Below are positions 1 to 38,409 of a DNA stretch of 38,409 bases, in pieces. The notes under the pieces were generated by a model. It did no database searches and was not told the DNA's origin. It saw only the letters and a program-made list of their open reading frames with translations. This stretch comes from a virus. The stretch covers positions 1 to 38,409 of the IMG/VR virus record IMGVR_UViG_3300030116_002143; one strand, 5' to 3'. The number at the start of each line of letters is the position of its first letter. The stretch's first letter is position 1. A program made the translations under genes and the position numbers.

Positions 1-100
1 AGGTGTGATCCAACAAACGTGCCGTTCTCTTATTCTTACACAAATTAACGTTAATACTGTGTTCGTGGTATTTCGTTTCCCAATTAGATAAACCGTACTT
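1..100. repeat. Terminal direct repeat, left copy
   Basis: Bases 3-100 are identical to 38312-38409. With one mismatch at base 2 the match covers 100 bp. It lies inside the helicase gene, whose frame continues correctly through the junction. This is what the ends of a contig from a circular or circularly permuted molecule look like. A true short terminal repeat on the virion DNA cannot be excluded from sequence alone. Confidence 0.95.
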
Positions 101-2332: not shown

Positions 2333-2382
2333 GTGTTACACCTTAACATATATTCTTGACATGTAAACTATTTCCCCACTAG

Positions 2383-2463
2383 GCTAGTACTAGGCTAGGC
2401 TAGGCAAGCACAAGTATTGACTACAACCGAGCATACCAAGTGCTAGTACTAGGCTAGGCTAGG
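2383..2463. repeat. CTAGG repeat pair upstream of the exonuclease gene
   Basis: A 22-bp sequence built from CTAGT/ACTAGG/CTAGG units occurs twice as a perfect direct repeat (2383-2404 and 2442-2463), 59 bp apart. The second copy contains the stop codon of the cytosine methyltransferase gene. A TTGTAGTCAAT box (minus strand) lies between the copies. The same 5-bp unit forms a six-copy array at 10746-10775. Confidence 0.85.
2398..2429 (-). promoter_or_regulatory. TTGTAGTCAAT-GCTTGCCTAGCC element, copy 2
   Basis: Read on the minus strand, this carries TTGTAGTCAAT followed after a short spacer by GCTTGCCTAGCCTAG. That is almost the same string as 10719-10755 on the plus strand. It points at the exonuclease gene about 70 bp downstream. 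I see no convincing -35/-10 pair within it, so an operator or other protein-binding role is more likely than a plain sigma-70 promoter. Confidence 0.55.
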
Positions 2464-3417
2464 GGACAGTTGCTTTCTGACAGCTCCTAAAATTATTCTC
2501 GCTCCTAGTACGGGAACTGCCATTCCGATCTGTTTTCTCACAGATTCCTTACCGCCCATAAAGTTGAATGAGTCGGGGAAAGTCTGAAACCTGGCGCGTT
2601 CACGGTTGGTTAAAGCTCTGTTCTCCCAATGGTATCCGTGACCTCCTCCACCCGAAGCTGCCAGCACCGTGTAAGCGGGTTCAGCGGGGTTTGTTTTTCT
2701 ATAACATGTAGAGATTTGCAATTTGTTTACCATGCGTAGATGCTCAGGTAAATCTGCTTGCCAAACATTCTCACCAGGTTTTATGTAAGATAACCTTTCG
2801 ACAACTTTCGGAGGGTGCTTTGTTTTCTCATTGTTTGTAGCCCACTCAGGGATATCTGAGAGAGCTTCACGAGCTGTGACTATCCGACCAGAGGGTTCAG
2901 GTACTTCAAACTTCAAACCGAGATCGTTACGAAACCCTACTATCACATATCTGTGACGTTTCTGAGGTACACCGTATTCCTCAAACTTGTATTTGTGGAC
3001 ACTCAACTCGTAACCGTAATCACCTGCAGCTGCAAGAGCATCAGTTATTATTTCCAAAGCTCCATTAGTGGTGATACCCGACACGTTTTCAGCTACAAAA
3101 AACTTTGGTGAACGCAAATTAAGATACTCCACACCGTAAGAATACAAACCGCCAAAAGAACCCTCTAAACCTTTACTCTTGCCAGCAATCGAAAAGTCGT
3201 TACAAGGAAACCCGTACATGAAACCATCCACATAAGGTAATCGTTCAATGTCAAATTCTTTTATGTCAGCACACAAAACGTTAGGTGACACGTTCAGATA
3301 AAAAGAATTAACAGCATCAAACTCGTAGTCGATAGCAAACTTGTGATCGAAACCTGCTTGTTTAGCGCCAAGAGCCATGCCACCAGCGCCACAAAAAAAC
3401 TCTCCAACAGTAAACAT
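2449..3417 (-). CDS. DNA (cytosine-5-)-methyltransferase
   Basis: A 322-aa enzyme that should transfer a methyl group from SAM to C5 of cytosine in a DNA target. The ordered C5-MTase motifs are visible: motif I FCGAGGMALG (8-17), motif IV GFPCNDFS with catalytic Cys72, motif VI AENV (109-112), motif VIII QKRHRY (152-157), motif IX around RERARFQTFP, and motif X GMAVPVLGARI near the end. The region between VIII and IX is the target-recognition domain. No restriction endonuclease partner is adjacent, so it is an orphan MTase, plausibly protecting phage DNA from host restriction. Its start overlaps the upstream stop as TAATG. Confidence 0.96.
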   Translation of the reverse strand: MFTVGEFFCGAGGMALGAKQAGFDHKFAIDYEFDAVNSFYLNVSPNVLCADIKEFDIERLPYVDGFMYGFPCNDFSIAGKSKGLEGSFGGLYSYGVEYLNLRSPKFFVAENVSGITTNGALEIITDALAAAGDYGYELSVHKYKFEEYGVPQKRHRYVIVGFRNDLGLKFEVPEPSGRIVTAREALSDIPEWATNNEKTKHPPKVVERLSYIKPGENVWQADLPEHLRMVNKLQISTCYRKTNPAEPAYTVLAASGGGGHGYHWENRALTNRERARFQTFPDSFNFMGGKESVRKQIGMAVPVLGARIILGAVRKQLSPSLA

Positions 3418-3704
3418 TATTCTGTTTCTTTTTCGCCTTGTATGACCTTAAAGTTTCTTTCCACATCAGGTTGCTCGGTTTCTTTCTGCACTCTCTGATA
3501 TTGCGGTGAGATCAGTTCAGCTAACTCTGATAAAAAATATTCGTAAGCTGTTTGTTGGTTGTAAACAAAATCCCCGATCCTGGTTAACGCTTCCTGGATG
3601 GTGAGATAGTTGATGCCTACAACGTCAGCTAATGTTTGCTCAGGAAGGATAACTATTTCCTCTAAGCGTTGTAGTCGTTCCTCGATGGTTTGTTCTTCTG
3701 ACAT
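3417..3704 (-). CDS. Small acidic helical protein, unknown
   Basis: A 95-aa protein translationally coupled (TAATG) to the cytosine MTase. Mostly helical and acidic; residues 1-20 (EEQTIEERLQRLEEIV) look like a short coiled coil, followed by a segment at about 25-45 that could be a helix-turn-helix (TLADVVGINYLTIQEALTRI), which I rate as weak. Its start ATG 3704 has GAAAGGAAG three bases upstream. The leader contains a long hairpin at 3727-3777 whose loop can pair with that Shine-Dalgarno. A regulator or partner of the MTase is possible but unproven. Confidence 0.75.
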   Translation of the reverse strand: MSEEQTIEERLQRLEEIVILPEQTLADVVGINYLTIQEALTRIGDFVYNQQTAYEYFLSELAELISPQYQRVQKETEQPDVERNFKVIQGEKETE

Positions 3705-3726
3705 GTTCTTCCTTTCGGTTAGTGGT

Positions 3727-3777
3727 GAGAACAGGAGGGGCTAAAGAAAGGAAGTTAACCTAGCCCCCCCTGTCCTC
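3727..3777 (-). promoter_or_regulatory. Long RNA hairpin with anti-Shine-Dalgarno loop
   Basis: In the leftward transcript the arms GAGGACAGGGGGGGCUA and UAGCCCCUCCUGUUCUC form 17 consecutive pairs, 15 Watson-Crick and two G-U. In the opposite strand the two G-U positions become A-C mismatches, so the structure suits the minus-strand RNA. The 17-nt loop contains CUUCCUUUC, the exact complement of the GAAAGGAAG ribosome site at 3708-3716. No U-tract follows, so it is not a typical terminator. Confidence 0.6.
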
Positions 3778-3831
3778 GACAAGAGGAGGGTTTCTTGTTG
3801 TGTATAAAAGTAGTTGACTGAGACCAGTCCG

Positions 3832-4281
3832 TCAAGTCATTAGTTCTTTTAAGAGAGACTCACATTCTTTTACAGTATTTTCCAATTCAAGTATCTCTAA
3901 ACTGGTAAGAGTATCCAACTCATCCTCATCGTCTAATGTTTCCAAAGAACTATCACGTAGCCATTCAAGCTCCCCAAGAAACAAGCCATAGTCATGTTCA
4001 ATTTGTTTCAGGAAAGATAGGTTTGGATTAGCAGAAAATTCTTTAGCAAGCCTGTGCTGCACCTCGCTATCCAACTCGACCTCATCTAATTTTAATTTTT
4101 CTAACAGCACAGGTAAATGTAAATGATCCCGAAATACACAGTCACATTTTCTTGGACAGTTTTCCGTTGGGAAAGGTACTTCCCACATCCATCTGCCATA
4201 CTCCGCACTTTCAAACCACTCCACATTTTTGGCATTAGATGTTATTATTTCAACAGCTAATTTTATTGTTTGTTCTTTCAA
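3832..4281 (-). CDS. Unknown acidic protein with a CPRKCDC cysteine motif
   Basis: 149 aa with start TTG 4281, chosen because GAAAGGAAG lies 5 bases upstream. A GTG at 4311 would give ten more residues but would fall almost at the predicted transcription start. Residues 1-60 are compact with a Cys-rich PRKCDC stretch that could bind a metal. The C-terminal half is strongly acidic and helical with leucine repeats. I do not recognise it. An extended -10 promoter sits just upstream and the long leader hairpin follows, so this gene appears to begin a sub-operon with the cytosine MTase. Confidence 0.75.
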   Translation of the reverse strand: MKEQTIKLAVEIITSNAKNVEWFESAEYGRWMWEVPFPTENCPRKCDCVFRDHLHLPVLLEKLKLDEVELDSEVQHRLAKEFSANPNLSFLKQIEHDYGLFLGELEWLRDSSLETLDDEDELDTLTSLEILELENTVKECESLLKELMT

Positions 4282-4592: not shown

Positions 4593-5120
4593 TCATTGCT
4601 TCCTTTCTACTGTCACGATGGTGTCGTTATGCCAACCACCATGAGGTACAAGAAGAATCTCCTCTATCTCAAAACCATTAGTCTTACCCATCCCACCAGA
4701 GTTCCACCCACAAGAGATAACCACACCATTCTTCTTAACGATGCGACCTATCTCTTTCTTCAGATCACCCCAAAAGGATGCCTGTGTATCTTTCATAGTC
4801 ACAGTTCTGCCAACATTCTGATAACATTCAGAAACTTGACGGGGACTATATGGTGGATCAAACAATACACAATGTATGTCATCATCTTTCCAACGCTGCA
4901 AAAAATCCAACGCATCTTCATGGTAATCAGCTTCAAACTCAGGGTTCAAATCGTTTGTATGCGAACAATCCCATTTGAACACGCTGTTACGCACAAAAGG
5001 ATCAAGTATATAACCACCATAAATAGGAGGTGACTTAATGTAACGCTCAATCAACTCCCGTATAGGTTTGATCGTAAATGTTTCCGAATTGGGCATCGCC
5101 CACTTTCTGCTAATTATCAT
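4593..5120 (-). CDS. DNA amino-methyltransferase (adenine-N6 or cytosine-N4 type)
   Basis: 175 aa. The catalytic DPPY is at 88-91 (VLFDPPYSP), and a degenerate SAM-binding motif I, ILDPFVRNS, is at 38-46, preceded by a motif X-like FTIKPIRELIERY. The order X-I-IV differs from the other amino-MTase of this genome at 12095-12592, so the two are not recent duplicates. Motif I lacks the usual FxGxG, so activity or SAM affinity may be altered. The start (ATG 5120) overlaps the upstream stop as ATGA. Likely role: modification of phage DNA against restriction. No cognate nuclease is visible. Confidence 0.85.
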   Translation of the reverse strand: MIISRKWAMPNSETFTIKPIRELIERYIKSPPIYGGYILDPFVRNSVFKWDCSHTNDLNPEFEADYHEDALDFLQRWKDDDIHCVLFDPPYSPRQVSECYQNVGRTVTMKDTQASFWGDLKKEIGRIVKKNGVVISCGWNSGGMGKTNGFEIEEILLVPHGGWHNDTIVTVERKQ

Positions 5121-5290: not shown

Positions 5291-5361
5291 ACTGACACCT
5301 CAACAGTTGAGGGTAGAGACTTGCCGCACCCCCATACGATCAAGCCTCCACCCATCAACAT
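5287..5361 (-). CDS. Possible 24-aa hydrophobic peptide
   Basis: A 25-codon frame from ATG 5361 that ends by an ATGA overlap with the next start. It begins MLMGGGLIVWGCGKSL. It fills an otherwise empty gap in a tightly packed operon, but the ribosome site is weak and the length is too short to judge. Confidence 0.3.
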   Translation of the reverse strand: MLMGGGLIVWGCGKSLPSTVEVSV

Positions 5362-7889: not shown

Positions 7890-8011
7890 TAGTTCACCTC
7901 CTCAAATTCCACAGCAAGCAGTTGTTCAAAATCTTCAACCGCCTCCACAATGTCCGCCCCTAAAGTCGGATCAAAGTCATCTTTAATTATTACTGTTATT
8001 GTTCTGCTCAT
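7889..8011 (-). CDS. 40-aa acidic protein
   Basis: Starts at ATG 8011 behind GAAAGGAAG and ends in a TAATG overlap with the next gene. It begins MSRTITVIIKDDFDP and continues as an acidic helix. Too short for family assignment, but operon fit is good. Confidence 0.65.
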   Translation of the reverse strand: MSRTITVIIKDDFDPTLGADIVEAVEDFEQLLAVEFEEVN

Positions 8012-25964: not shown

Positions 25965-28504
25965 TGGCTACAGGAGATCCTGGTCAAAGACGTTCAATGA
26001 GGATAAACAAAAAGTTTCAACCTTTTAATCCTCGTGTCAATCAAAAAGGTGGTTTTAGTGGCGGTCCCGCAGATCAACGGCGACCTGATTTCACTACTGT
26101 GGCTACTAATCCTGCGGGGCGGGGTGGCCCCTCGCCTGTAGTCGCATCTGCTTTGCAATCTATAGCGGATCAGGCGTTGTTAGGGCAGGCTGCTCGACCT
26201 GTTACTACTGATAGGGTTGCTAGGGGTATAGCTTCTGCTGGTGACGCTGGCATGTTAGCTAGTGCGCGTCGTGAACCTGCTGTTGGTCCTAATCTTGTTG
26301 ATCGTGTTTTGTTACAGCAAGCTCAACGACCTGTTACAACGGGTTTCGCTGATGCTGCTGACAGAGCGATGAGAGCTAGTGCTACGCGTAGTCCTTCTAC
26401 TACTGGTGCGTCTGCTGCTGCTGATAAGGCTATGAGGGGTAGTGCCGCTAGGGGTGCTGCTGATGCTCAAAGAGCTAGAGCTGCGGCTCAGGCTACTGGG
26501 AGGGCTGTATCTGCTGGCGCTGATAAGGCTTTGGGTGTAAGTCCTGTTTCGAGAGCTGTGAATGATGTTGCTGCGAAGTTTGCTACTTCTGGTTACAGTC
26601 CTGCTGATGCTGCTGATCGGATTATTAGACAGCAAATTCCGCAACGTTCGGCTGGTGTGTCGCCTGCTGATAGAATGATGTTGCAACAGGCACAACGACC
26701 TGTTACGACTGGTGCTGGCGCTTCGACAAGCGCTGATAAGATGATGTTACAGCAAGCTCAACAACCCGTTACGACTGGTCCTGGGGCTTCTGCGAGTGCT
26801 GACAAAATGATGTTGCAGCAAGCTACGCGACCTGTCACGTTTCAGGATTATGTTGACCCTGCTGATGTAAAGTTTTTACCAGGTGTTGATGGTGCGCCTT
26901 CTACTTACGATATGGGTGCTGGCGCTCCTCCAGCTTTAGGGTACGATCCGACTCCTGAAGATCCTGTTGATGCGTATTTGCGTGATTTGGCTGCGATGAC
27001 TGAAAAGGAAAGAATTGATTTAGCTGAGACTTTAGGTGCTTTTGACAGTGAGCAGGATTATTTAGATGCTTTAGCTGGTAAAGGCAGTTGGGTTGAAGGT
27101 AACTACATTCCCGCAGGCGCTGGAGCAGGCGCTGGTGCTGGTGCTGGTGCTGGTGCAGGCGCTGGTGCAGGCGCTGGAGCGGGCGCTGGAGCGGGCGCTG
27201 GAGCTGGAGCAGGTGCGGGCGCTGGGGCTGGTATGGGTGTAGGCAGTCCTTTAGATAGGCAAATAAACATTGTTGAAACAGCGTTATCTGAACGAGAAGC
27301 CGCTATACAAGACATGTTAGACGAAGGTTTAATAGACATTGAAGCAGCGCAATCTTTGTATGACACGGAACGTGAAAGAGTCTACAACGACTTTCTTACT
27401 GAACAAGCAGGTGTCATGGCAGGATTTGAAAGCGACATGGCTGCCGCTCAAGCTGAACGTACTGCTGACAGGGATGCTTTAACAGCAGAGTTGATCGCAG
27501 CGGGGATAGATCCCGCTCTGGTCGCTGACGAGTTAGCTATGATTGATGCCACCTATCAGGGTGGTCGTGACGCTGAACGAGACTATTTGGATGCTTTGGG
27601 TCGCATAGGTACTTCGGCTGATGCTGATAGGGCTTTGTTAGGTGAAGCTGTGTTTGGTGGTTTCGGTCAGGACTTGCGGTCTACAGCAAGGGAGATGGAT
27701 TTGAACGCTGCTATGTTGGCTGCTGAGGATCGTCAGACGGCTCGTGAGCGTGGTTTGTCGTCTGAGTTGTTGTCTCCGTTTACTGGTGTCCCTGAGGGCG
27801 CTATGTTTGCAGGTCAGTACGCTGGTGTGGACACTCCTGGTATTCAATCAGGTCGTGAGCAGAGAGCTTCTCAAGAGCGTATAGCGTTAGCTGAGAGTGC
27901 TGACGAGTTGCAGGCTGCTATTGCTAAAGCTGATGCTGATAGTTATGAAACGATGATGGATCTCATGTCTCAAGGTATTGATCCTTTCACGGGTCAGTTG
28001 ATGCCGTTTGATCCTGATAATCCTTATATGGGGTTGGATGCTAACCAGAGGCTAAATCAGATTTTGAAGAACAAGTATCCTTATCGTGATTTGTTACCTA
28101 CTGTGTTGAATGACATGTTAACGAATTTAGACATAGATCAAGATACTTTCGACACGTTACAAGAAAGTTTGTTTGACCAGTATGAAGGATTTGCAATAGG
28201 TTCTGATGGTGATATTTCTAGTTGGTTGCTTGCTAATCTTGAACCTCAACTCGCTGCTGACATCATGCAAAGACTCCAAGTAGTGCAACAATCTTTCGCT
28301 CCTACCGTGTTGCAACCTGGTATGGACATGGCTGCTACGGCTGCTAGTGGGGGCGGGCAGGTGGGTTACTCCCCTGAACAGATTGAAGCTGCTAAAAATC
28401 AGGTTTTAACTGATGCTGAAATAGAAATGGAGGCGTTGGAGGAATGGGAACCTGAAAGATCTGTAGTGGACAAACTCTTAGACAATTTCACTATTAGTAT
28501 CTAA
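25964..28504 (+). CDS. Large internal virion protein with repeats and a Gly-Ala tract
   Basis: 846 aa. Residues about 60-300 are Ala/Arg/Gln-rich with repeats of an ADxMMLQQAxRPVTTG unit, perfect to degenerate, clearest in three copies at about 26660-26840. A (Gly-Ala)19 tract follows at 27116-27229, then a long helical part rich in Ala, Asp and Glu (coiled coil, about 425-620). The C-terminal 200 residues look globular. Overall it resembles ejection/internal core proteins of podoviruses, and the linker-like repeats would suit a protein that must unfold through the tail. No enzymatic motif is seen. Confidence 0.8.
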   Translation: MATGDPGQRRSMRINKKFQPFNPRVNQKGGFSGGPADQRRPDFTTVATNPAGRGGPSPVVASALQSIADQALLGQAARPVTTDRVARGIASAGDAGMLASARREPAVGPNLVDRVLLQQAQRPVTTGFADAADRAMRASATRSPSTTGASAAADKAMRGSAARGAADAQRARAAAQATGRAVSAGADKALGVSPVSRAVNDVAAKFATSGYSPADAADRIIRQQIPQRSAGVSPADRMMLQQAQRPVTTGAGASTSADKMMLQQAQQPVTTGPGASASADKMMLQQATRPVTFQDYVDPADVKFLPGVDGAPSTYDMGAGAPPALGYDPTPEDPVDAYLRDLAAMTEKERIDLAETLGAFDSEQDYLDALAGKGSWVEGNYIPAGAGAGAGAGAGAGAGAGAGAGAGAGAGAGAGAGAGAGAGMGVGSPLDRQINIVETALSEREAAIQDMLDEGLIDIEAAQSLYDTERERVYNDFLTEQAGVMAGFESDMAAAQAERTADRDALTAELIAAGIDPALVADELAMIDATYQGGRDAERDYLDALGRIGTSADADRALLGEAVFGGFGQDLRSTAREMDLNAAMLAAEDRQTARERGLSSELLSPFTGVPEGAMFAGQYAGVDTPGIQSGREQRASQERIALAESADELQAAIAKADADSYETMMDLMSQGIDPFTGQLMPFDPDNPYMGLDANQRLNQILKNKYPYRDLLPTVLNDMLTNLDIDQDTFDTLQESLFDQYEGFAIGSDGDISSWLLANLEPQLAADIMQRLQVVQQSFAPTVLQPGMDMAATAASGGGQVGYSPEQIEAAKNQVLTDAEIEMEALEEWEPERSVVDKLLDNFTISI
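26653..26840 (+). repeat. Coding repeat, about 18-residue unit
   Basis: Three adjacent copies of an AD(K/R)MMLQQA-x-(R/Q)PVT unit with Gly-Ala-Ser linkers; weaker copies lie upstream near 26170 and 26310. DNA and protein are both repeated, which suggests recent expansion. Confidence 0.75.
27116..27229 (+). repeat. (Gly-Ala)19 coding repeat
   Basis: 19 Gly-Ala dipeptides in one run, encoded by mixed synonymous codons (GGC, GGA, GGT, GGG; GCT, GCA, GCG). Mixed codons speak against pure slippage or assembly collapse and for selection on the protein. Confidence 0.9.
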
Positions 28505-36506: not shown

Positions 36507-37471
36507 GTTCTTACTGTTCTTTCTGCGTCTGCGACCATGTTGGATATGCGTTGCCTACCGTCGCTGCGGTTGTTGAATTTGGAACCCCACGCTATGTCAG
36601 CGTCTATGAGTTCTTCTTCGATGTCGCCACTGGGGTAGCCTTGTTCAACCATCGCGCAAGCCAACGAGAACAAGGTCGCGGATCTGTCTCCGTTGGGTTT
36701 GTTAGGCTCTGGTCGAGGTCCGTTGCGTCTGATAGCTTCAGCTAACCCTGTCAGCTTCCCGCTGTTTCTAGTCGCATACGTTTTTCTAGGAGGTGGGGGT
36801 GGCGGGGGTTTGTACAGGGCGTGTACTGGCTCCCATTCCTCTGGCAGTACCCTTGACATCAGAGCTGTTGTAGCGAACTGTGATGCGGTCATTTCCTCTC
36901 CGTGTCTGATAACAACGTTACGACCTGGATCTGCACAAGCGGGGTATGGGAGCCTGACACCGTTTCCCCATCCTTTTCCTGTTAGTTCTATTTGTTTCGG
37001 GTTGACTTCTGTTATCGGTGCGTCAACTATGTTACACGCTGCGATCAGTCCTTCTCTGCAATGGCGTGCGAGTATCGGTTCCGAGAAGAAAACCCACAGG
37101 TGGTAGCCTTTGGAACGTGAAATTTCCACCCAAGATGCCACGTTCAGTTGCTTCAATAATTCTTGTACGTTTAATGCGTGTATTAATGATTCTTCTTCTC
37201 CTACATCCCAGTCTACGCAACCCCAATAAACCATGTATTTAGACGCTCCCGTTTCCTGCCCTTCTGAGGCTTCTGTCACCTCTAATAGTGGGTACACCCC
37301 GATGGGTAGCTCAGAGTCGCTCAGATGGTCCTCTATGGCGGTCTGAAAGGCAATCCCGTAAGCTGTGCAAAACCCTCCAGACCAGTTTTGCATGGGTCTG
37401 AAATCTGAGCCTGCTTTAGCTATCTTCCCGCCTCTGAAAAGCTCACTGAAAGCGACACTCGTTTCACTCAT
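36503..37471 (-). CDS. Archaeo-eukaryotic-type primase (AEP / PrimPol-like)
   Basis: 322 aa from ATG 37471; the frame extends to 37504 with other starts, and the ATG overlaps the PP-loop gene's end. The catalytic DxD is D87-W-D89 in CVDWDVGEE, followed by SRSKGYHLW (118-126, the SxH nucleotide-binding motif) and GNGVRLPYPACAD, the third AEP motif. The C-terminal 60 residues look like a PriCT-type helical domain (SLACAMVEQGYPSGDIEEEL). It should make primers and may also extend DNA. With no DNA polymerase gene, it and the helicase are the phage's core replication enzymes. Confidence 0.88.
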   Translation of the reverse strand: MSETSVAFSELFRGGKIAKAGSDFRPMQNWSGGFCTAYGIAFQTAIEDHLSDSELPIGVYPLLEVTEASEGQETGASKYMVYWGCVDWDVGEEESLIHALNVQELLKQLNVASWVEISRSKGYHLWVFFSEPILARHCREGLIAACNIVDAPITEVNPKQIELTGKGWGNGVRLPYPACADPGRNVVIRHGEEMTASQFATTALMSRVLPEEWEPVHALYKPPPPPPPRKTYATRNSGKLTGLAEAIRRNGPRPEPNKPNGDRSATLFSLACAMVEQGYPSGDIEEELIDADIAWGSKFNNRSDGRQRISNMVADAERTVRT

Positions 37472-38249
37472 ATTCAGACATGCAACCGCACCCTCCCCAG
37501 TCAAACAAATCTAATTGTTTAACATCTTCAGACGCTACACGCAAACGGAAATCTTTTAACGTCATAGGTTTACTGGAACCGCCACGCCTGTCTCTCAAGA
37601 TGGCTACATCTTTGTCTAAGAAATCACGCATCTCTTGTTCTTTAGTTTCCCAATCAGCGTAAACTTCAGGGATCGCTTCTAAAGCCCATTTGAAATGAGC
37701 TTGACCTGCGCGAATACACAACCCTCCGCAGTTGTTGTGAGGCGCACCTAGTTTATACAAGCGGGGTTCTTCCACACCGTATTGTTTCAACAGTGTGTCA
37801 GCTTCTTCCTTGTCGCTAACAGGTTCCCACAATAAAGGGAAATCCACTTTGTATGGTTCCCAATGTTTAGGTATCCGTTCCGCTCTGTGTGCTTCTGTCC
37901 AGTCGATACCGAAATGAATGGTGGTTGTTTCAGGATCACAGTTTTCTTTCACCCATCCTGCGGATGCTTCCTGTTTTAATATTCTGGAACACACTGGCAC
38001 TCTGTTGTTTCCTAAAAACTTGTTGTCTTTGAACACTTCCCAAATGTTCCGACCATCCGACAGGTGAACAAGGGGAAGATCAAGAGCTTCAGCTCCTTCG
38101 TAAAGAAACCTGTACAAATCTTCATCTTCTGTTTTCGTGTCGGTGAATAAAAGTTTCACATCCGACTGGGGGTATTTGTTGGCTACAAGATGAGCGGCAA
38201 GCCATGATGCTTTACCTCCACTGTACATTACAACGTGAGCGTCACTCAT
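37464..38249 (-). CDS. PAPS reductase-like PP-loop protein
   Basis: 261 aa from ATG 38249, the start nearest the first motif; an upstream ATG at 38267 lies in the helicase gene. The PP-loop SGGKAS (10-15) is the ATP-pyrophosphatase motif of PAPS reductases, tRNA thiolases and DndC-like proteins. A Cys pair (NNCGGLC) and a terminal CGCM could bind metal or an Fe-S cluster. True PAPS reduction for sulphate assimilation is unlikely for a phage. A role in sulphur chemistry on DNA or tRNA, or in nucleotide modification, is more plausible. Confidence 0.82.
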   Translation of the reverse strand: MSDAHVVMYSGGKASWLAAHLVANKYPQSDVKLLFTDTKTEDEDLYRFLYEGAEALDLPLVHLSDGRNIWEVFKDNKFLGNNRVPVCSRILKQEASAGWVKENCDPETTTIHFGIDWTEAHRAERIPKHWEPYKVDFPLLWEPVSDKEEADTLLKQYGVEEPRLYKLGAPHNNCGGLCIRAGQAHFKWALEAIPEVYADWETKEQEMRDFLDKDVAILRDRRGGSSKPMTLKDFRLRVASEDVKQLDLFDWGGCGCMSEYE

Positions 38250-38409
38250 CTTCTGGCACCAGCTCATCCGTGTAAGGTTGAATGTGACCAGCAGTCGAAT
38301 CCAAATAATAAGTGTGATCCAACAAACGTGCCGTTCTCTTATTCTTACACAAATTAACGTTAATACTGTGTTCGTGGTATTTCGTTTCCCAATTAGATAA
38401 ACCGTACTT
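38242..38409 (-). CDS. DnaB/RecA-like helicase (C-terminal end, and repeat of start region)
   Basis: Completes the gene seen at 1-919. The C-terminus reads YYLDSTAGHIQPYTDELVPE and stops at 38242-38244, overlapping the start of the PP-loop gene. Bases 38310-38409 repeat 1-100. The helicase is one intact 328-aa gene in the circular form. Confidence 0.85.
   Translation of the reverse strand, partial: KYGLSNWETKYHEHSINVNLCKNKRTARLLDHTYYLDSTAGHIQPYTDELVPEDE
38310..38409. repeat. Terminal direct repeat, right copy
   Basis: Bases 38312-38409 equal bases 3-100. See the left copy. The single mismatch (38311 A versus base 2 G) lies at the outer edge, which suggests read-end noise. Confidence 0.95.

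Follow-up and report, generated by a model that had tools for sequence, protein, structure and literature searches.

What is the function of a long hairpin that stands directly ahead of a marine phage gene and carries in its loop the exact complement of that gene's Shine-Dalgarno (SD) sequence? We addressed this question in the window, by which we mean the whole stretch of 38,409 nucleotides that was analysed. Identical 98-bp repeats at the record ends (window 3–100 and 38312–38409) suggest that the genome is complete, either circular or terminally redundant.

The leader hairpin and its surroundings

The main hairpin is formed by the minus-strand RNA of window positions 3727–3777 and has a stem of 17–19 bp; its coordinates, strand and motif had been read correctly in the first-pass annotation. 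The 111-nt minus-strand leader RNA folds with a minimum free energy of −39.4 kcal/mol (z = −3.3), versus z = −1.2 for the plus-strand fold of the same leader. The features, all on the minus strand, are as follows.

3807..3835, minus: promoter-like TTGACG-17-TACTTT, a consensus match only, overlapping the upstream gene's stop codon
3779..3798, minus: second small hairpin ACAAGAAACCCUCCUCUUGU, from folding, immediately 5' of the main hairpin
3759..3777, minus: 5' arm of the main stem, GAGGACAGGGGGGGCUAGG, G-rich, from folding; covaries with the 3' arm in L007/L008
3743..3759, minus: apical loop GUUAACUUCCUUUCUUU, from folding; both ends able to add 1–3 stem pairs
3746..3754, minus: anti-SD stretch CUUCCUUUC inside the loop, exact 9-nt complement of 3708–3716
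3727..3745, minus: 3' arm of the main stem, UUUAGCCCCUCCUGUUCUC, from folding
3708..3716, minus: SD GAAAGGAAG serving the small-protein gene, separated from the stem by 10 nt on its 3' side
3417..3704, minus: small gene after the hairpin, encoding a 95-aa all-helical protein, founder of the hairpin-tied family (profile search)
2449..3417, minus: cytosine-type DNA methyltransferase (MTase) gene (phrog_116), downstream in the window, missing from L007
1499..2332, minus: exonuclease-like gene (phrog_1218, phrog_69), further downstream, which served to find relatives

The anti-SD stretch CUUCCUUUC is also similar to the 16S rRNA 3' end CCUCCUUUCU. The exact sequence GAAAGGAAG occurs at six minus-strand sites and once more as the complement of the loop, seven occurrences versus 0.28 expected. 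Five of the leftward sites precede the candidate starts listed in the first-pass annotation, all of them plausible (ATG at 3704, TTG at 4281, and ATG at 8011, 8152 and 9454, those at 8011 and 8152 opening frames of 40 and 42 aa); the sixth lies at 4599–4607. The 95-aa protein has no match in Pfam or PHROG, and its model (pLDDT 78) has no fold match.

Like the main hairpin, the second small one presents a CCUCC-like loop, and its counterparts in L007 and L220 reach an equivalent fold with other stems. The promoter-like element is kept in L002, L006 and L007 and has analogues in L220, L225 and L226; a stricter promoter scan did not recover the element at 3807–3835. A longer gap between the upstream stop codon and the hairpin, with such a promoter-like TTGAC/TTGAT-17-TANNNT sequence inside it, is found in the window clade, L220 and L225/L226. 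The putative promoter at 3807–3835 would place the RNA start just before the second small hairpin.

Elsewhere in the window, another leader hairpin (MRTDLKIQRRII...) lies at 5311–5353 on the minus strand, ahead of a 57-aa gene; its loop is not anti-SD. It recurs in L003, L004, L005 and L007 with a nearly conserved loop, (A)TCGTATGGGGGTGCG(G), and a variable stem, while the hairpin preceding the homologous 57-aa gene in L177–L190 has an anti-SD loop instead. Runs of palindromic tetramers forming near-perfect inverted repeats are found just ahead of the exonuclease gene (CTAGGCTAGTACTAG, window 2379–2457) and upstream of the exonuclease in relatives (CATGGCATGGCATG in L191, L209, L215, L228 and L230; CTAGCTAG in L012). 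A perfect C-rich/G-rich hairpin, GTACCCCCACCCCCC-CTTTAGG-GGGGGGTGGGGGTAC, is present in L216–L219, L225, L226, L229 and L241, directly upstream of the start of a gene that lies before the exonuclease. The window also encodes a phosphoadenosine phosphosulfate reductase-like protein (phrog_424, 37464–38267, minus strand), a candidate for auxiliary metabolism, and at 27101–27251 an imperfect 12-bp tandem array, GCTGGTGCAGGC, corresponding to a glycine/alanine-rich repeat of an 846-aa rightward ORF.

A conserved RNA hairpin in related phages

The 95-aa gene is present in nine viral contigs, and the hairpin, its loop and the SD are kept in all eight of those that include the leader. The loop AACUUCCUUUCUUU is conserved in all relatives of the window clade. 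In L007/L008 the stem is GGGAACGGGGGGCUAGG / UUUAGUCCCCCGUUUCC, which differs at many positions and is fully paired, with loop core and SD identical. No prophage or host contigs were found when the exonuclease was sought in GTDB genomes. The search for isolated phages returned only a distant uncultured relative, MW202803, in which neither the hairpin nor the small gene was seen in the exonuclease region.

The leader had initially been tied to an MTase operon. This reading was rejected. L007, whose leader is identical in L008, has the hairpin, the SD and the small gene with no MTase, the exonuclease directly following the small gene. Conversely, L012 and L013 encode MTases 84% and 83% identical to that of the window and have the hairpin in a different position, about 6–10 nt past the stop codon that ends a gene of 161 or 159 aa and upstream of the exonuclease, with the loop UCUUCCCUCCUUUCUU. 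Thus, the element does not belong to the MTase. Relatives that retain the MTase and lose stem pairing or loop complementarity had been named as the telling case against the proposed regulator; in L012/L013 pairing and complementarity survive, and it is the position that moves.

Scanning 80 loci with related exonucleases for strong stems, and related viral contigs with a profile of the 95-aa family, which yielded 53 distinct leaders, revealed a wider family. The stem scores of the leaders are bimodal, with a GC-rich hairpin in 38 of the 53 (score of at least 30), 15 at 22 or below and none between. Nearly all 38 loops include an SD-complementary stretch (CUCCUU, CCUCUC or CUUCCUUUC), so that the complementarity first noticed in the window is conserved in its relatives; L185 and L191, both among the 38, show almost no loop complementarity to their own SD. 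Most hairpin-less leaders are those of internal cistrons, and where the small gene is internal, the hairpin in several clades stands ahead of the gene heading the operon, namely the 57-aa gene in L177–L190, an HNH-like gene in L194 and a KHGxSAY gene in L212 and L213. In L194 (533–610) the small gene is separated from the hairpin by the HNH-endonuclease-like gene, whose leader the hairpin thereby becomes. Complete genomes contain about one element each; L178 and L182 have two such hairpins. L012, L013, L053 and L155 carry a similar hairpin with no start within 90 nt.

Stem pairing is conserved with many compensatory changes. Such changes are found in the window clade and in the L209/L202, L232 and L177–L188 groups, and formal covariation counts gave 2 and 3 pairs altered on both sides, with none when the partners were slid. 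Read with the pyrimidine loop, the 38 non-identical stems hold 477 Watson-Crick pairs, 95 G-U pairs and one A-C pair, a G-U/A-C ratio biased in its own favour by a stem finder that ranks G-U above A-C; the hairpin-less leaders offered no A-C-rich alternative of comparable strength. The 95 G-U pairs versus one A-C pair fix the strand as that of the pyrimidine loop, leftward in the window, and extend to these 38 stems the early remark that the leftward RNA pairs better.

The same observations bear on the idea of a DNA-level site akin to ESAS, the inverted repeats known from cluster K mycobacteriophages. SAS/ESAS do share with the hairpin the placement of such a repeat immediately ahead of the SD (PMC3203893), but here pairing is conserved and stem sequence is not, and only one strand retains G-U pairing, the opposite of what was reported for ESAS, where departures did not support RNA pairing (PMC3203893). 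We therefore consider a DNA-level site highly improbable.

Anti-SD loops are not a general property of hairpins in these loci. They are found in 36 of 47 strong leader hairpins versus 6 of 151 hairpins elsewhere in the same loci (P = 1e-23, a value that ignores kinship). A stem-only pattern search of all viral contigs, with one stem type and a free loop, gave 20 distinct matches with anti-SD-like loops versus 33 without; most of the 20 precede a gene start and many precede members of the small-protein family. A covariance model built from 16 members produced 41 matches in relatives totalling 0.55 Mb (E up to 1; a few are the same site matched on the opposite strand), versus none in control loci totalling 0.57 Mb. 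The element of the window itself scores weakly (E = 0.31), since the window clade is divergent. At the gathering threshold, Rfam 15 gave no match in the whole window or in 15 relatives (115 kb), and the sub-threshold matches in the window were chance-like, mainly to miRNA models; a known RNA family was therefore rejected. The hairpin is a genuine and conserved RNA element; it displays an anti-SD loop, has no Rfam counterpart and usually heads an early operon.

Conservation of the loop could also reflect protein binding. The core CUCCUUU is near-invariant over changed stems and the element follows the small-protein operon, which is compatible with an operator whose pyrimidine loop would be recognised by the small protein, S1 or another ribosomal protein, of phage or host, that controls the operon. 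Such an operator appears doubtful: loops range from 9 to 22 nt, an unusual spread for the target of a hairpin-binding protein, the next gene may be the small-protein gene, that of the 57-aa protein, an HNH-like or a KHGxSAY gene, and base pairing is the simpler account of an anti-SD sequence.

Possible routes from the loop to a Shine-Dalgarno sequence

The anti-SD stretch lies in the 3' part of the loop, usually 0–3 nt from the 3' arm, which is the arrangement of an H-type pseudoknot, and the potential stem 2 has 5–9 pairs in most elements. The linker was described early on as about 10 nt and the knot as tight. Both descriptions are borne out, with L3 = 10 nt in the window and tightness general in the family, where linkers are mostly 3–11 nt versus stems of 11–20 bp. 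As a linker rule we took the IBV pseudoknot, which we assume to span 11 bp with 8 nt, and combined it with a penalty of 9.6 kcal/mol. By this crude model the cis pseudoknot is net favourable in 7 of 51 elements, four of them of the window clade, and unfavourable in the other 44. For the window clade the estimates are −2.6 to −5.0 kcal/mol with 1–2 bp melted (about −3.4 with 2 bp melted). Temperatures below 37 °C would favour the pseudoknot. The local pairing of loop and SD that was first proposed is thus estimated to suit the window clade but not most of the family; as a general mechanism, a cis pseudoknot with intact stem was rejected, both geometry and energy being against it.

The position of the element relative to the preceding gene offers another route. 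The hairpin begins no more than 12 nt from the upstream stop codon in 29 of 51 elements (often 2–12 nt past it), so a terminating ribosome would cover the hairpin base. A long GC-rich intercistronic stem, often just past a stop, also recalls RNase III sites or tail-less terminators, and the element might serve RNA processing, stability or termination between cistrons, the loop being incidental. We regard this as improbable, given the strong enrichment of anti-SD loops in leaders relative to other hairpins and their conservation over changed stems. An intrinsic terminator was rejected because the 3' arm is not followed by a U tract, either in the window or in its relatives.

The preferred reading, to which we assign a probability of roughly one half on the basis of the sequence comparisons, is that of a leader or intercistronic hairpin controlling translation of the first cistron through pairing of the anti-SD loop with the SD. 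The controlled cistron would usually be the small helical-protein gene of the early operon. The long GC-rich stem would present a pyrimidine loop as a copy of the 16S rRNA anti-SD end, and a loop paired with the SD would compete with the ribosome and lower initiation. In the window clade, pairing with the own SD could take place in a partly opened H-type pseudoknot with a stem 1 of about 15 bp, a stem 2 of 9 bp and a linker of about 12 nt. In other clades the stem is too long for the linker, and the loop would reach an SD only if the stem base were opened, for instance by a ribosome that ends translation at the preceding stop codon, or in another molecule. The structure, its strand, the conserved anti-SD loop and the position are established by the comparisons, from which we infer the regulation, its repressive sign and the route of the loop to its target; the loop may act in trans or, once the stem opens, on its own gene. 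Speaking against the preferred reading are the unfavourable cis estimates for 44 of 51 elements, the hairpins of L012, L013, L053 and L155 that have no start nearby, the near-absent loop/SD complementarity of L191 and L185, and the within-clade comparison of loops and SDs given below.

How well the loops fit particular SDs bears on this choice. Pairing energies of loops with their own SD average −8.3 kcal/mol versus −6.1 for shuffled sequences. In comparisons between clades, the fit of a loop to its own SD exceeds that to the SDs of others (p = 5e-5, confounded by relatedness), and within clades loops are not better matched to their own SD than to that of a sister (p = 0.21); strict co-evolution of loop and own SD was rejected since the overall signal vanishes within clades. 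For the SDs of other genes in a phage group, the group's own loops are also a somewhat better fit than the loops of other clades (double-centred p = 0.006, with crude gene calls). The most striking case is the L209/L215 clade, where the loop is CCCUCUCUU and several other genes have AAGAGAGG-like SDs.

Action on other SD sites, already raised by the first-pass annotation, is suggested by such complementarities. As a trans-acting anti-SD element, the hairpin would pair with SDs of other phage (or host) mRNAs and damp a set of early genes. This alternative could draw on the six leftward GAAAGGAAG sites of the window, on the group-wise fit, to which L209/L215 belong, on the poor cis geometry in most relatives and on the hairpin of L012/L013, alone past a stop codon. 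We nevertheless hold it to be unlikely: with about one copy per genome, the loop is kept beside the SD of one gene in nearly every phage, and while the fit to the group's SDs allows trans action, a single host anti-SD common to all SDs could also explain it.

With the 3' end CACCUCCUUUCU, which we take to terminate the 16S rRNA of actinobacteria and of many alphaproteobacteria, the loops share an average match of 6.9 nt versus 4.8 nt for shuffled loops, although this tail may not be that of the host. Our guess is that the host is an actinobacterium. More speculatively, the early-operon hairpin might mimic the 16S anti-SD tail and, by capturing SDs, buffer or re-time the translation of a group of phage genes, with a loop that tracks the SD type in use in that phage.

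Comparison with known systems

The structured RNA described here is absent from Rfam and recurs across a broad group of viruses for which metagenomes are almost the only source. Its covariation is unusually clear and its loop points directly at translation initiation. If the preferred reading, translational control through the anti-SD loop, is true, these phages would tune an early operon by copying the sequence with which the ribosome recognises starts. We found no papers on anti-SD hairpin loops in phage leaders in the literature searched, which was covered in part.

In SD-sequestering H-type leader pseudoknots, such as those of the rpsO/S15 type and of riboswitches, a leader loop is able to pair at the downstream SD. 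The present loop is likewise complementary to a downstream SD, with the anti-SD in its 3' part. Unlike in those systems, the stem is 11–20 bp long and the linker short, and the knot needs a partly melted stem; the element also has no ligand domain and no Rfam match. In Staphylococcus, small RNAs with C-rich, UCCC-type loops (RsaE, RNAIII) pair SD sequences through the pyrimidine loop of a hairpin. The present hairpin also displays an SD-complementary pyrimidine loop, and complementarity to several SDs is present, as in trans-acting anti-SD small RNAs. It differs in standing beside its own gene, in a leader or intercistronic position, and, as far as can be judged here, is not a separate transcript. 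SAS/ESAS elements, described from mycobacteriophages of cluster K (PMC3203893) and from Microbacterium phages of cluster EF (PMC7302621), have a conserved sequence and about 10–19 copies per genome; for those of cluster K, RNA pairing finds no support (PMC3203893). Our element resembles them in being phage-specific and in placing an inverted repeat or conserved motif immediately before the SD and start (PMC3203893, PMC7302621). By contrast, it is present in about one copy per genome, and between clades its stem sequence varies while the pairing and the anti-SD loop are conserved.
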